A stretch of 40,853 nt of DNA, taken from Acidimicrobiales bacterium (GTDB taxonomy: Bacteria > Actinomycetota > Acidimicrobiia > Acidimicrobiales > MedAcidi-G1). Below the pieces are notes generated by a model. That model was not told the DNA's origin. It was given only the letters and a program-made list of their open reading frames with translations, and did not search any database. How positions within the stretch are numbered: position 1 is the first letter of the stretch; every line of letters starts with the position of its first letter. Made by a program: the position numbers and the translations under genes. The stretch is from assembly GCA_028823445.1 (NCBI GenBank), contig JAPKBH010000016.1:1-40853 (forward strand), in the 5' to 3' direction. Of the stretch, positions 4,132-29,684 are shown one piece after another.

Positions 4132-5412
4132 CTAGCCTTCTTTTGAGATGCGGTCCACGATGAGGGGCCGGGCCGCCGGGGCGTTTTCGCTGATACTGAT
4201 AGCGCCCTCCAAGGCAGCCAGAGCAGGGGCGAAACGATGGGCGTCGTCGCTGTGAAGTTCCAACAAGGGTTGACCGGCTTCGACTTTGTCGCCGGGTTTG
4301 GCCAGGCACATCACGCCGGCGGTGGGGCTAACGGGGTCTTCTTTGCGGGCCCGGCCGGCCCCCAGGCGCCATGCGGCTACCCCAACGCTGCGGCAATCTA
4401 AACGGCTCAAATAACCCGATTCTTGGGCGACTACTTGCTGCTGATGCTCAGCGACCGGCAAACCAGCGCTCAAGTCGCCTCCTTGGGCAGAAACCATTTG
4501 CTCAAACACTTCTAATGCCGCACCAGAAGACAGCACCTCAGCCGGGTCGGTATCAATGCCCACCAAGGCCAGCATTTCACGAGCCAAAGCTACGGTGATT
4601 TCGATAACGTCGGCTGGGCCGCCACCGGCTAGTACCTCTAGCGACTCGGTTACCTCTAGTGCATTGCCGGCCGCTTGGCCCAGCACGGTTTCCATGTCGG
4701 TCAATAAAGCCACGGTACGCACCCCATGATCTTCGCCGAGGGCCACCATGGCTTCAGCCACTTGGCGGCCTCGTTCTACCTCAGGCAGAAAAGCCCCGGC
4801 ACCCACCTTGACGTCCAGTACCAGAGCGCCGGTACCTTCAGCAATTTTTTTCGACATGATAGAACTGGCGATGAGCGGAATAGAACCCACCGTGCCCGTG
4901 ACGTCGCGCAAAGCGTAAAGGCGCCGGTCAACCGGGTTGAGGTCGCTGGTGGCCCCGGCAATGATGCCGCCGACTTCACGCAGTTGGGTGACCATTTCTT
5001 CAAGAGAAAGCGAAGCTCGCCAACCGCTAATGGCTTCCATTTTGTCGAGCGTGCCCCCGGTGTGGCCTAAGCCTCGGCCAGATAACTGGGGTACGGCGGC
5101 CCCACAAGCGGCCACCAGAGGAACCAAGATTAACGAAACTTTGTCGCCCACCCCGCCGGTGGAGTGCTTGTCTACGGTGGGTCGCCCGAGGTCACCGAGT
5201 TGCAAAGAAGCCCCTGAGTTGATCATGGCCCGAGTCCACACGCTGAGCTCGTCGGGTTCCATGCCTTGAAAATAAATAGCCATAGCCAAAGCAGCCGCTT
5301 GTTCGTCGGCAATGGTTTCGCCTTGGGCGTAATTGCTAATGAACCATTCAATTTGCTGGTCGCTTAAACGATGCCCGTCCCGTTTAGCAATAATAATGTC
5401 GACTACGTCCAT
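4132..5412 (-). CDS. deoA: Thymidine/pyrimidine-nucleoside phosphorylase
   Basis: DeoA phosphorolyses thymidine or deoxyuridine to the free base and 2-deoxyribose-1-phosphate. The 426-residue protein has the family signature around the phosphate site (DKHSTGGVGDK, about 81-91) and the following SGRGLGHTGGTLDK. The C-terminal barrel-sandwich domain is present (GDKVEAGQPLLELHSDD). The stop codon immediately abuts the stop of the convergent ALDH gene with no intervening base. It lies nine bases downstream of cdd on the same strand, making a cdd-deoA operon that feeds the forward mutase-deoC-ALDH operon. The gene could equally be a broad pyrimidine-nucleoside phosphorylase (pdp), since the families are close. 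Confidence 0.93.
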   Translation of the reverse strand: MDVVDIIIAKRDGHRLSDQQIEWFISNYAQGETIADEQAAALAMAIYFQGMEPDELSVWTRAMINSGASLQLGDLGRPTVDKHSTGGVGDKVSLILVPLVAACGAAVPQLSGRGLGHTGGTLDKMEAISGWRASLSLEEMVTQLREVGGIIAGATSDLNPVDRRLYALRDVTGTVGSIPLIASSIMSKKIAEGTGALVLDVKVGAGAFLPEVERGRQVAEAMVALGEDHGVRTVALLTDMETVLGQAAGNALEVTESLEVLAGGGPADVIEITVALAREMLALVGIDTDPAEVLSSGAALEVFEQMVSAQGGDLSAGLPVAEHQQQVVAQESGYLSRLDCRSVGVAAWRLGAGRARKEDPVSPTAGVMCLAKPGDKVEAGQPLLELHSDDAHRFAPALAALEGAISISENAPAARPLIVDRISKEG

Positions 5413-5421
5413 GATTTCCGC

Positions 5422-5826
5422 CTACGAGTTGTCTGAGGTGTTGAGGTCTTCTGGAATGAAGGGGTCGGCCAAGAGTTCCAAAATATTTTTGGGCCCGCCC
5501 GGGCCATCTACCATGAGGTCTGAGCCGCCTGCCTCAATGAGCACCTGGCGGCATCGGCCACAGGGGGCCAGTGGCTGGCCAGCGGGGTTGGTGGCTACCA
5601 CGGCGATGAGTTTTCCTCCACCGCTGCGGTGCAGGTCAGAGACAAGACCACATTCGGCGCACAGGGTTAACCCGTAAGAAGCATTTTCTACATTGCACCC
5701 GGTAACAACTCGACCGTCATCGGTGAGGCCAGCGGCCCCCACAGCAAATTTAGAATAAGGGGCGTAAGCCTGTCGAGCAGCTTGGGCCGCTTCGGACCGC
5801 AAAGCAGTCCAGTCAATGTTGGTCAT
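5422..5826 (-). CDS. cdd: Cytidine/deoxycytidine deaminase
   Basis: Cdd converts (deoxy)cytidine to (deoxy)uridine, supplying substrate for DeoA. The small, homotetramer-type protein shows the zinc ligands in LCAECGL and PCGRCRQ and the substrate segment NVENASYG. I place the start at the ATG that gives MTNIDWTALR, which is about 134 residues and fits the family. An in-frame ATG pair further out (5862) would add 12 residues (MMLPLYKEWIPP) that do not look like family sequence. Neither start has a clear Shine-Dalgarno sequence: the bases before the chosen ATG are CCTCCT. The start is therefore uncertain. It is the first gene of a cdd-deoA operon. Confidence 0.9.
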   Translation of the reverse strand: MTNIDWTALRSEAAQAARQAYAPYSKFAVGAAGLTDDGRVVTGCNVENASYGLTLCAECGLVSDLHRSGGGKLIAVVATNPAGQPLAPCGRCRQVLIEAGGSDLMVDGPGGPKNILELLADPFIPEDLNTSDNS

Positions 5827-8183: not shown

Positions 8184-9941
8184 TTGAAAAAGGGTAAAGG
8201 AACGTCGCTGACCCTAGTTGACTTCGGTCTCGGGCCTTATGTGCATGGCACCCCCAGCAAACGGTTCCCGGTATACACCCGAGGCAACGTGGGAGAGGTT
8301 TATCCCGAAGTGGTGTTCCCCTTTAGCGCTTCAATATCAACATTGATAAGCAGCGACCCGGCAGTAGAAGCCTTAGAACAAACCGGGATTTTGACCAAAC
8401 GAGAGAATCAAGAAAACGCTGATGTTCATATGGGCGCCTTCGGTGGGTACAGCTATGTGAACTTATCCGTATCACGAATAATTGCCGTGCGCACGCCAGG
8501 GGTAACGGTGGAAGAAGCCGATGCCACATTTTTAGGATCCGAAGGACTGGCCCCGCCCCATGTGCGGCAACGAGGCGACCGCAACCTCCGGGCATCTTTG
8601 CGGGGAATGCTTTATGGGCTCAAAGTGCTTAGCGGTAAACAATTGCCCGACTTAGAAAAAGAGCAACAAGTAGCACGGAGATGGCAAAAAGATCTTCCCA
8701 AAATTGCCGACGCCACAAACCAGCAGCTGTTAGCAGTATTTGTTGAGGCGGTCCCGTTGATGGGCCGTCTCTTTCGCAACCACTTATTGATAACCGGCGG
8801 CGCAGGCGCTGGTCTGAGCCTGTTGAAAATATCTTGCGAAAAGCGGTTGAACGACCATACGTTGGCACTAACGCTGCTAAGTGGTATTGGCGAGGTGGAT
8901 TCAGCTTTGCCTGCGCTGGCCTTATGGGAACTTAGCAGAATGGTCCGGGAGTCCGAAGAGCTCACTGGTTTATTTGACCAAGGGTTGGACGGTTTAAACG
9001 TACGGTTGTTGGTTGAGTCCTCTGAGGTCCTGTTTGCTCAGCGTTTTCGAGAGTTTCTCATGCGCTTTGGTAGTCGTGGCCCCAACGAGTGGGAGGTGGC
9101 CTGTGAGGTTTGGGGCACTAACCCACAGATGCCGCTGGCCATCATTGACCGAATGCGCCACGCAGAAAATGACCGCGCTCCTGTTTTAAAAAATGAAAAA
9201 TTAGCCCAAAATCGTGAAGCAGCAGTAAGTCGGGTACACGCCAAATTCGGTCCATTGGGGCGATGGAACTTTGATCGGGCGCATCGCTGTGCAATGTCTT
9301 ACAGCCAGGCCCGAGAACGATCCAAAACGGTGTTGGTGGAAATCGTGCACGATTGCCGGCTGGCTTTACGCGAACTGGGGCGGCGCATTGCTTTAGAAGG
9401 CGGTGGTCAGGCAGACGACCTGTGGTACGTGCTGCTCGAAGAATTCGAGGACTATCAAAATGACCCCGTATCAATGGTTGAAAAGATCGCCGAAAGAAGG
9501 GCCACCCGGCAGGCCCTCTCCGAATTGCTTCCTCCCTTTTGCTTTACTGGGCAAATGCCCGCCCCCAACACGTGGGAAAAACGCAGCACTAAAGCCGTGG
9601 CTTTGTTAAAGCAAGGCGACGTGATTACCGGCATCGCCGGCTGTATAGGTAAAGCGCAAGGCCGAGCTCGGGTGGTTGTCGACCCCGCTGACCCTGGCGA
9701 TCTTGGGCCCGGTGACGTGCTCATTGCCCCATTAACCGACCCCAGTTGGACGCCTCTTTTTGTGCCGGTAGAGGCGGTAGTGGTCGATGTAGGTGGCCAA
9801 ATGAGTCATGCCATTATTGTTTCTCGAGAACTCGGCCTGCCTTGTGTGGTGAGTGTCACCGACGCCACTAAACGCATTCCCGATGGGGCGCTTATTGAAG
9901 TAGACGGGGCGGCCGGAACGGTCACCGTGCTGGAGGTTTAG
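8184..9941 (+). CDS. PEP-utilizing enzyme mobile (swivel) domain protein without ATP-grasp domain
   Basis: The 585-residue protein ends with a phosphohistidine swivel domain like that of PEP synthase and pyruvate phosphate dikinase. The signature GGQMSHAIIVSRELGLPC contains the phosphorylatable His (about residue 542). The N-terminal part (TRGNVGEVYPEVV) resembles the linker region of PEP-synthase-like proteins that lack ATP-grasp, and the middle is helical and poorly recognised. It is not a complete PEP synthase or rifampin phosphotransferase. The start is doubtful: the TTG at 8184 has only a weak ribosome site. An ATG at 8126, two bases after the preceding stop and preceded by GAGTAGG, opens another frame that would join this one if one base of the AAAAA run near 8190 were removed. 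The reaction is unknown. Confidence 0.8.
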   Translation: MKKGKGTSLTLVDFGLGPYVHGTPSKRFPVYTRGNVGEVYPEVVFPFSASISTLISSDPAVEALEQTGILTKRENQENADVHMGAFGGYSYVNLSVSRIIAVRTPGVTVEEADATFLGSEGLAPPHVRQRGDRNLRASLRGMLYGLKVLSGKQLPDLEKEQQVARRWQKDLPKIADATNQQLLAVFVEAVPLMGRLFRNHLLITGGAGAGLSLLKISCEKRLNDHTLALTLLSGIGEVDSALPALALWELSRMVRESEELTGLFDQGLDGLNVRLLVESSEVLFAQRFREFLMRFGSRGPNEWEVACEVWGTNPQMPLAIIDRMRHAENDRAPVLKNEKLAQNREAAVSRVHAKFGPLGRWNFDRAHRCAMSYSQARERSKTVLVEIVHDCRLALRELGRRIALEGGGQADDLWYVLLEEFEDYQNDPVSMVEKIAERRATRQALSELLPPFCFTGQMPAPNTWEKRSTKAVALLKQGDVITGIAGCIGKAQGRARVVVDPADPGDLGPGDVLIAPLTDPSWTPLFVPVEAVVVDVGGQMSHAIIVSRELGLPCVVSVTDATKRIPDGALIEVDGAAGTVTVLEV

Positions 9942-10978
9942 TGCTCTTGTTTTAGCCGTGGAATTCCATGGGTGGGTAGCCCTGCATCGGCAAAGCGCTG
10001 GTAAAGCTCAAAAAAAGCAGGCCCGAAAGGGTCAACCCCGGTAAGGGGCATAGCGGCGCGCACAATAGTGAAATCAAAAGGGGCGAGTTCAGCGGCTTGG
10101 GCAAAGTATTTTTGCGCCGTTTCGTCTTGTTGGTTTCTTTGGGCATGTACGGCGAGGCGAAAATGAAGATGGGCTAATATCTCGTTTTCGCTCAGTCCGC
10201 TTACTTGGTGGCTGGCATCGGCGGGTAAGTTTCCGTTGAGAATCCAGTCGGTTACTTGTTCCATGTGCCCAGCGCAGGCAATACCAGTGAAATCAATAAA
10301 CATGTCGCTCCCGAATTCGGTGGCGTTAGGACGAACAATCTGATCATGTTCATCTATCCACAAAACGGTGGGCACATTGGTGATGGCAAAGAGTTCAGCA
10401 AACTGGTGTTCGGTGTCAACGAGCACCGGGTAAGTGATGCCTTCGGCGAGGGGAATCACCGCATCAATGTTTTCATCCAGAGCAACGGCGATGACCGTAA
10501 AATTGTTCCCAGCCAAGGTTTGGTGAAGTTCCTGCCACCCGGGCAGGTCAAATGCGCATCCTCACCAACTGGAAAAAGCCACCAAAAGACGCCGAGTGCC
10601 CGACCATTCGGTTAACTCTCGGGAAGCGCCGTCAAGGTCTCGCAAGGTCACGTTAGGAACCTGCCTACCCACTAAAGCATTTTCTCGTTCTTCAGCGGGG
10701 GAGCCGATAACGACCCATTGGTTCTCGGAGTCAACCAAGGTCGGACGGTTTAGTTTTTCTGCAGCGGCGAGCAGATCGAGGCCATCGTCGGTCATCAAAG
10801 ATGCTGCATCTGGCACGGGGATACACAAAGAACCTTGGCAGAGGCCTTCGGGTTTGAGTTCCCAACCTAATATTTCATCAAGAACGCTGGGCTTAACCCA
10901 GGGCTTTTGGTCTTGCCAACGGACTTCAACAGCGCTTGTCCAGTCGGCCAAAATGGTGGTTTCTTGAGATTCGTGCAT
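9938..10978 (-). CDS. Thioredoxin/redoxin-domain selenoprotein with a Sec-Gly-Cys motif (UGA read through)
   Basis: Two open frames, 10978-10565 and 10561-9938, lie in the same frame and are separated only by a TGA at 10562-10564. Read through, they give a 346-residue protein whose AhpC/TSA-like thioredoxin domain runs on without a break: VPNVTLRDLDG, LLVAFSSW, U139-G-C141, AFDLPGW, then VIAVALDE and NVPTVLWIDE. Homologous redoxins have a cysteine exactly where the TGA falls (SW-C-G-C), so the TGA most likely encodes selenocysteine. A perfect hairpin follows it (separate entry). The N-terminal 90 residues carry a CxxxxC pair (Cys47, Cys52) and the C-terminal third is helical, TPR-like. The ATG is preceded by AAAGGATC. 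The gene converges on the swivel-domain gene with a 4-base overlap. A role in thiol-disulfide or peroxide metabolism is inferred. A nonsense mutation is the alternative. Confidence 0.85.
10531..10547 (-). promoter_or_regulatory. Bacterial SECIS-like hairpin (redoxin selenoprotein)
   Basis: On the coding strand, CCTGCC pairs perfectly with GGCAGG around the 5-nt loop CGGGT. The stem begins 14 nt after the in-frame TGA and the loop lies 20 nt after it. Bacterial SECIS elements are short hairpins within the coding region just downstream of UGA, with a guanine at one of the first loop positions; this element fits. Binding by SelB is inferred. Confidence 0.7.
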
Positions 10979-11085
10979 GGTGATCCTTTGCTACGGCTAA
11001 AAGCCAAGGTAACGCATGGGGCAAGAAATAAAAAATCGACTGACCCGATAAGAAATCAAAAGGAGCAATAGGCCAGACTTACCTC

Positions 11086-11523
11086 ATGGCAGACACTGAC
11101 CCCATCCACAAAACGGTGACCGATTGGCATCAGTACCTTTCAGAAAAAGGGGCAACGTCGCTAGAAGACCTCTTGCACCCTGACGTAGTATTTTGGTCGC
11201 CAGTCTTATTTAAGCCCCAAGAAGGCCGAGTACTAACCATGATGTACCTCGAGGCGGCGGCCATGGTTTTTCCGGGCGGTGCGCAGCCTGAGGCATCTGA
11301 AGAAAGCTCAGTCGCCAAAACGAGTTTTCATTACACCAAAAAAATACTTGACGGGCATCATGCCGTTTTGGAATTTGAAACTCAAATGGGTGAACTGCAA
11401 GTCAACGGAATCGACATGATCACCTGCGATGACCAAAGTCTCATTACCGAATTCAAGGTGATGATTCGACCATTTAAAGCCATTGAGGTAGTGCGCGACC
11501 GCATGATGGCCGCTTTGGGCTAA
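11086..11523 (+). CDS. SnoaL/NTF2-like fold protein
   Basis: This 145-residue protein has the look of the NTF2-like/SnoaL superfamily of cone-shaped alpha+beta proteins. It has an N-terminal helix (VTDWHQYLSEKG), LEDLLHPDVVFWSPVLFKP with the typical aspartate and tryptophan, a middle helix and a C-terminal strand (LITEFKVMIRPF) ending in a helix. Members are enzymes or small ligand binders and the substrate here cannot be told. It is divergent from the redoxin selenoprotein gene (107 bases apart) and convergent with serC, whose stop overlaps its own by four bases. No convincing ribosome site directly precedes the ATG; the nearest, AGGAG, lies about 20 bases upstream. Confidence 0.8.
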   Translation: MADTDPIHKTVTDWHQYLSEKGATSLEDLLHPDVVFWSPVLFKPQEGRVLTMMYLEAAAMVFPGGAQPEASEESSVAKTSFHYTKKILDGHHAVLEFETQMGELQVNGIDMITCDDQSLITEFKVMIRPFKAIEVVRDRMMAALG

Positions 11524-28784: not shown

Positions 28785-29684
28785 ATGAACGCTCCCGATG
28801 CATCAGTCGATTACATCGCCCGAACCCGCGAGCAATACGACTCGCTGGGTTACCCGCCTTACTTATGGGCCGAACGGCCTGACACCCCGCCGTGGTCACC
28901 CATAACCCGCCCTTTGGCGGAGTCAACGGTGGCTCTTTTGGGTTCAGGGGGCGGCTACAACCGCGGTCAGGTGGCATTCCATTGGAAAGACGACACCGGC
29001 ATTCGTCTGTTGCCCAGCAATCAGCCAGCTTCTGATGTGCGGGTAACGCATTTTGCTTACGATCTCGAACCGGCCCGCGCCGACCCCAACATTGTGTTCC
29101 CTCTGGACCGCCTCAACGACCTGGTAGAAGAAGGGTTTATTGGAGGACTGGCCTCGCAATCCATAGCTTTTATGGGCGGCATTTATTCGGTGCGGCGAGC
29201 CGAAGAGGAACTCACCCCGGCCATTCTTGACGCCGTTGAAGCTCTCGCGGAAGACATCGACTTGGCGCTACTCGTACCCGTTTGACCGGTGTGCCACCAG
29301 ACCGTGAGTCTGGTAGCGCGAGCGCTTGAAGCGGTGGGAGTCCCCACCCTCACCTTGACTGCCGCTTACAGCATTACCGCTTCGGCCAACCCGCCGCGGG
29401 CCGCTTATGTAGAAATGCCTTTGGGCTATACCGCAGGCCGGCCCGGTGACCGTGAGTTTCAGTTGAACTTATTGCGTAAAGCGTTGACCCTTGGAGTAGC
29501 CATCGAAACCCCGGGCACCATTGTCGACACCGGCGTGCGTTGGAGCGAAGACCGCTCGTGGAAATCGGCGGCCTCAAGCGGGTTAAACAATGGGGTAATT
29601 TCTGCCGAAGGAGACACTCGTCAAGAACGGGTGGACACTCCCCAATATCAAAGCGAAGACGACCGCCTCGCTGCCGAAGCGTAG
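28785..29684 (+). CDS. GrdB/PrdB-like selenoprotein with a UxxC motif (UGA read through)
   Basis: Two open frames (28785-29282 and 29286-29684) are in the same frame with only TGA at 29283-29285 between them. Read through, they make a 299-residue protein whose centre reads LALLVPV-U167-P-V-C170-HQTVSLVARALE. This is the signature region of the selenoprotein-B family of glycine/sarcosine/betaine/D-proline reductases and their relatives, where selenocysteine or cysteine occupies the first position of a UxxC or CxxC pair. The N-terminal region (LLGSGGGYNRGQVAFHW, RVTHFAYDL, FPLDRLNDLVEEGFIG) and the C-terminal region (PPRAAYVEMPLGYTAGRPG) are both conserved in character. A hairpin follows the TGA (separate entry). 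The gene is divergent from the MerR-men operon. Its substrate is unknown; grdA-like partners are not visible. Confidence 0.87.
29296..29314 (+). promoter_or_regulatory. Bacterial SECIS-like hairpin (GrdB-like selenoprotein)
   Basis: ACCAGAC (29296-29302) pairs perfectly with GTCTGGT (29308-29314) around the loop CGTGA. The loop begins 17 nt after the in-frame TGA. Stem length, loop size, loop guanine and distance match bacterial SECIS elements and closely match the hairpin in the redoxin gene. Confidence 0.72.

Follow-up and report, generated by a model that had tools for sequence, protein, structure and literature searches.

A redoxin gene of an Acidimicrobiales bacterium very probably inserts selenocysteine at an in-frame UGA, codon 139, as judged by comparing its sequence with those of homologous loci. 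The gene lies on the minus strand of the window, by which we mean the whole stretch of 40,853 nucleotides that was analysed (contig JAPKBH010000016.1 of assembly GCA_028823445.1). Its features are as follows.

9938..10978, minus strand: selenoprotein gene, redoxin with Sec139-Gly140-Cys141 (346 codons plus TAA; homologs align over the full length)
10984..10989, minus strand: probable ribosome binding site AAAGGA, upstream of the ATG
10685..10978, minus strand: N-terminal domain, residues 1-98 (pLDDT 92.9 when predicted alone)
10823..10840, minus strand: invariant Cys47-x4-Cys52 pair (GLCxxxxCxP) of the N-terminal domain (39/39 homologs and 27/27 rows of alignment A3)
10331..10672, minus strand: thioredoxin-fold domain (AhpC-TSA/Redoxin), residues 103-216 (PF00578, 41 bits; PF08534, 36 bits; ResA/DsbE-like)
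10562..10564, minus strand: in-frame TGA, residue 139, read as selenocysteine (Sec or Cys only at this column)
10556..10558, minus strand: codon of Cys141, which would be the resolving cysteine of the UGC motif (invariant, 39/39)
10531..10547, minus strand: putative bacterial SECIS hairpin CCTGCC-CGGGT-GGCAGG (pairing, compensatory changes and loop conserved in Sec homologs)
9986..10276, minus strand: all-helical C-terminal domain, residues 235-331 (helices in the model; weakly TPR-like)

Reading frame, domains and probable activity

The open reading frame starts with an ATG at 10978 and terminates after 138 amino acids at the TGA at 10564-10562, past which the same frame stays open for 207 further codons, up to a TAA at 9940-9938. 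Read through, it encodes a protein of 346 residues that contains FSSW-U139-G-C141-AFDLPGWQ. The initial annotation, made from the letters alone, had described one frame open on either side of a single TGA and a 346-residue product with U139-G140-C141; the former is exact to the base and the latter matches the frame 10978-9938. When TGA triplets were scanned over the whole window on both strands, 57 of 1,197 were flanked by 45 open codons on each side, and just two of the 1,197, the redoxin TGA and the one at 29283, were flanked upstream and downstream by sequence whose codon use was clearly coding-like.

The AlphaFold2 model of the whole protein has a pLDDT of 93.5. Residues about 95-251 share the fold of the ResA/TlpA oxidoreductases and resemble ResA, DsbE-like and TlpA structures (Z up to 17.7, rmsd 2.0), from which the redoxin differs in having UGC (CGC in Cys homologs) where those enzymes have a CxxC active site, and in having two extra domains. 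The extracytoplasmic signal or anchor of ResA/TlpA proteins was not seen by inspection: the N-terminus (MHESQETTILADW) holds no hydrophobic segment and strands are predicted there, so the redoxin is probably cytosolic. A structure search with the N-terminal domain gave no confident fold match, and a resemblance to the usher N-terminal domain was rejected as too weak (Z <= 5.9; Foldseek E >= 0.037). The C-terminal domain matched TPR_2 with 16.2 bits, below the cut-off.

From its fold and motif, the protein is most likely either a thiol-disulfide reductase or an enzyme that reduces peroxides. Thiol-disulfide oxidoreduction would, with reasonable probability, be its main activity. That selenocysteine is inserted in an enzyme that is chiefly a peroxidase, an alternative that concerns function only, is possible if less probable: the domain matches Pfam AhpC-TSA and Redoxin, and UGC-containing proteins were called Prx-like when 46 such selenoprotein sequences were reported in 2008 from Global Ocean Sampling data (PMC2398784, available text). 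The redoxin agrees with the description given there, with a PF00578 score of 41 bits (cut-off 26) and U139-G-C141. Against a peroxidase, the closest solved folds are ResA/DsbE-like, and the peroxiredoxin motif PxxxTxxC/U, given as PxxxTxxU in the available text of a 2026 review (PMC13188914), is absent, LLVAFSSWU standing in its place. The initial annotation had proposed a selenoenzyme of thiol or peroxide metabolism; the selenoprotein part is supported by the comparative data presented below, while the thiol or peroxide role is a fair but unproven suggestion from fold and motif.

The neighbours of the redoxin gene in the window encode a PEP-utiliser, a class V aminotransferase and a PGA_cap protein, and a 145-aa ORF without a Pfam match is divergent to it (11086-11523, plus strand). 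Across homologous loci we found no shared operon; enoyl-CoA hydratase, ABC ATPase and acyl-CoA ligase genes recur by eye with varying place and strand, and none has a counterpart beside the redoxin gene in the window. A PHROGs search gave no match and hence no sign of a link to phages.

Codon 139 in homologs and the Sec machinery

A single-sequence scan of the genome contigs found no relatives, and an alignment used as query in a profile scan of named genomes retrieved 507. Position 139 was UGA or cysteine in all 119 inspected loci, which combine two partly overlapping sets, a 39-row alignment and 80 named loci (L080, for example, is L022); no third residue occurs at the column where the initial annotation expected homologs to carry Cys or Sec. 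Within the family of the source genome, good redoxin matches were present in 26 of 48 genomes and the motif contained TGA in 25/25 loci (L020-L044). The 39-row alignment, which includes other families, has U in 37 rows and C in two at this column, with Cys141, Cys47 and Cys52 invariant in 39/39. Among the best 80 of the 507 relatives, nearly all titled Acidimicrobiia or Actinomycetota MAGs, 66 carry TGA at this codon and the other 14 carry TGC or TGT. The UGA thus lies, as in the test for bacterial selenoproteins, inside a conserved frame at a column restricted to Sec and Cys.

It is very improbable that TGA-139 is an ordinary stop, or reflects a pseudogene or a sequencing error, leaving two separate proteins or a dead gene. 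TGA does end 6 of the 22 long ORFs of the window, but the same codon is TGA in the 25 family loci and in 66/80 named loci with both halves conserved, all other homologs have Cys at the column, and the split would fall inside the thioredoxin domain. A sequencing error was checked separately: a second genome has the same TGA in a locus of 95% identity, and so do dozens of divergent loci. One locus (L027, G040:C44:5773-6786) has an extra TAA in its C-terminal part besides the TGA, through decay or an assembly error.

The source genome (1.93 Mb, 69 contigs, 95% complete) encodes the whole Sec machinery that the initial annotation had proposed looking for. SelB (267.8 bits, over cut-off) and SelA (393.9 bits) adjoin each other on contig C59, which also carries tRNA-Sec with a UCA anticodon (C59:42718-42809, 63.4 bits, cut-off 47), and SelD scores 359 bits. 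The Rfam tRNA-Sec model scores weakly on every control genome, so only matches over the cut-off were counted. There are tRNAs that decode UGA and carry other amino acids; that UGA-139 encodes such a residue, whether because UGA is reassigned throughout the genome or because the Sec tRNA system delivers Cys or Ser at this site, is nonetheless highly unlikely, as ordinary genes here terminate at TGA, the genome has the full set of SelA, SelB, SelD and tRNA-Sec, and homologs show Cys, never Trp, Arg or Ser.

Two Cys-form genomes, G421 (99% complete) and G213 (97%), could be tested for Sec machinery, and in neither did we find SelA or a tRNA-Sec over the cut-off. SelA was present in the Sec-form genomes tested except in two drafts, G010 (69% complete) and G083 (94%), in which it was not found and of which G083 has tRNA-Sec. 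Within the family, SelA occurs in 45 of 48 genomes whether or not the redoxin gene is present; it is so nearly universal that its co-occurrence is uninformative there.

Several other genes contain in-frame TGA codons. The SelD gene itself has one in the motif HGAG-U-GCK (L018, about 1532-1534) and is probably a selenoprotein gene, an in-frame Sec being known for many SelD proteins. A PrdB-like gene of the window (28785-29684, plus strand, TGA 29283-29285) probably encodes a second selenoprotein, with a U167-P-V-C motif; it matches Pfam GRDB and TIGR04483 (143.9 bits, below the cut-off of 300), and has a hairpin ACCAGAC-CGTGA-GTCTGGT at 29296-29314 (z -2.71). PrdB-like genes were found in 46 of the 48 family genomes, with exactly one TGA in nearly all matches. 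A further PrdB-like match on contig C14 of G000 (5064-5693, plus strand; 37% identity to the window protein) likewise contains a single in-frame TGA, which brings the probable number of selenoproteins in the genome to at least four, SelD counted. Two loci, L046 and L048 (in G044 and G040), encode a distant redoxin whose frame has a TGA within FMHSY-U-PxC; it is probably a Prx-like selenoprotein of the UxxC type.

The putative SECIS hairpin

The 6-bp hairpin with loop CGGGT that had been noticed downstream of the TGA was recovered at 10547-10531, its loop beginning 21 nt after the TGA, and its proposed role as a SECIS is backed by covariation and codon choice among homologs. In 32 distinct Sec sequences, pairing holds in 98.4% of stem cells, and at three of the six pairs both sides have changed; 0-1 of 500 shuffles matched the real stem on the five measures. 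In L066 the stem is GGTCCC paired with GGGACC, keeping its pairing while Leu-Pro-Val-Trp-Gln becomes Val-Pro-Val-Trp-Asp, and in L087 CTTGCC pairs with GGCAAG, CTG/CAG having become TTG/CAA. The Leu145 codon is CTG in 24/24 family genes, where CTG makes up 21% of the other Leu codons, and it is still CTG in the 13 genes that use CTG least (about 9% of their other Leu codons). Such fixation is unique to Leu145 among the Leu columns of these 24 genes, in all of which both stem codons, CTG and CAG, are invariant.

The loop reads CGGGT or AGG[TCG]T in 66/66 Sec loci versus 1/14 Cys loci (Fisher 4e-14, a value that ignores kinship and applies to a loop set picked after seeing the data). Sec and Cys interchanged four times on the best tree, of which two changes are forced by supported branches, and independent pairs are therefore too few to reach significance for the loop contrast. 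The stem is mostly retained in Cys homologs as well, and its conservation is in part owed to the conserved peptide. In folding energy the hairpin does not stand out from shuffled sequences (z = 0.39), and an Rfam search with the hairpin returned no relevant family. Support for the hairpin as a SECIS is thus comparative and does not come from folding energy; it has the form expected in the bacterial-selenoprotein test, a SECIS-type hairpin directly 3' of the UGA with a conserved loop G.

In the mechanism that we propose, this hairpin, 15-31 nt past UGA-139, would recruit SelB with Sec-tRNA(Sec), and selenocysteine would be inserted at UGA-139 to give a single 346-residue protein. Sec139 of the central ResA/TlpA-like domain would then be the attacking selenol and Cys141 the resolving thiol, the cycle most likely running via a selenenylsulfide. 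More speculatively, Cys47 and Cys52 could form a second thiol pair for electron relay or metal binding, and the helical C-terminal domain might bind a partner.

A sister clade of known UGC selenoproteins

The best NCBIfam match of the redoxin is NF041054 (WAxxUGC_long, ResA-like; 4e-54), with which it shares the UGC motif, the Sec codon, a CxxxxC N-terminal domain and the thioredoxin domain. Its score of 184.1 bits lies below the curated cut-off of 300, as do those of the sister-clade proteins L068, L069 and L063. The two types differ at the C-terminal end and in the motif, WAxxUGC in NF041054 versus FSSWUGC here; the UGC part alone is common. On the tree, a long and fully supported branch splits the redoxin clade, distributed mainly in Acidimicrobiia, from true NF041054 members, and genome G160 has one match of each type. 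From the separate clades and the presence of both types in G160, the two look like paralogous sister families.

The Prx-like proteins of PMC2398784 and the 'UGC-containing TlpA disulfide reductase family protein' of PMC13188914 have, in the available text of these papers, the same UGC motif and pfam00578/cd02966 thioredoxin fold, and likewise come from aquatic bacteria with Sec forms and Cys homologs, a likeness drawn from their descriptions. The redoxin is therefore a kind of selenoprotein that has already been described, to which it adds a distinct branch and nothing new in principle. The initial annotation had not mentioned these earlier UGC-containing Prx-like selenoproteins. Our literature search found no joint mention of Acidimicrobi-, selenocysteine and selenoprotein, and within the literature searched the clade and its second Cys pair appear undescribed. 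A more tentative and rather doubtful proposal is that the clade is an unnamed group of three-domain, probably cytosolic selenoenzymes, mainly of Acidimicrobiia, in which Sec139/Cys141 and Cys47/Cys52 would make up a four-centre relay or a metal-handling redoxin with a substrate of its own.

With a UGA that passes for a stop and scores under the NCBIfam cut-off, genes of this clade can readily end up in annotations as a truncated redoxin plus an orphan, an error that recognising the redoxin as a selenoprotein puts right across Acidimicrobiia. Sec and Cys forms both occur, with SelA and tRNA-Sec absent from the tested Cys genomes, which offers a usable natural experiment on how Cys replaces Sec and how a SECIS decays, and the invariant second Cys pair poses a concrete, testable question of mechanism.
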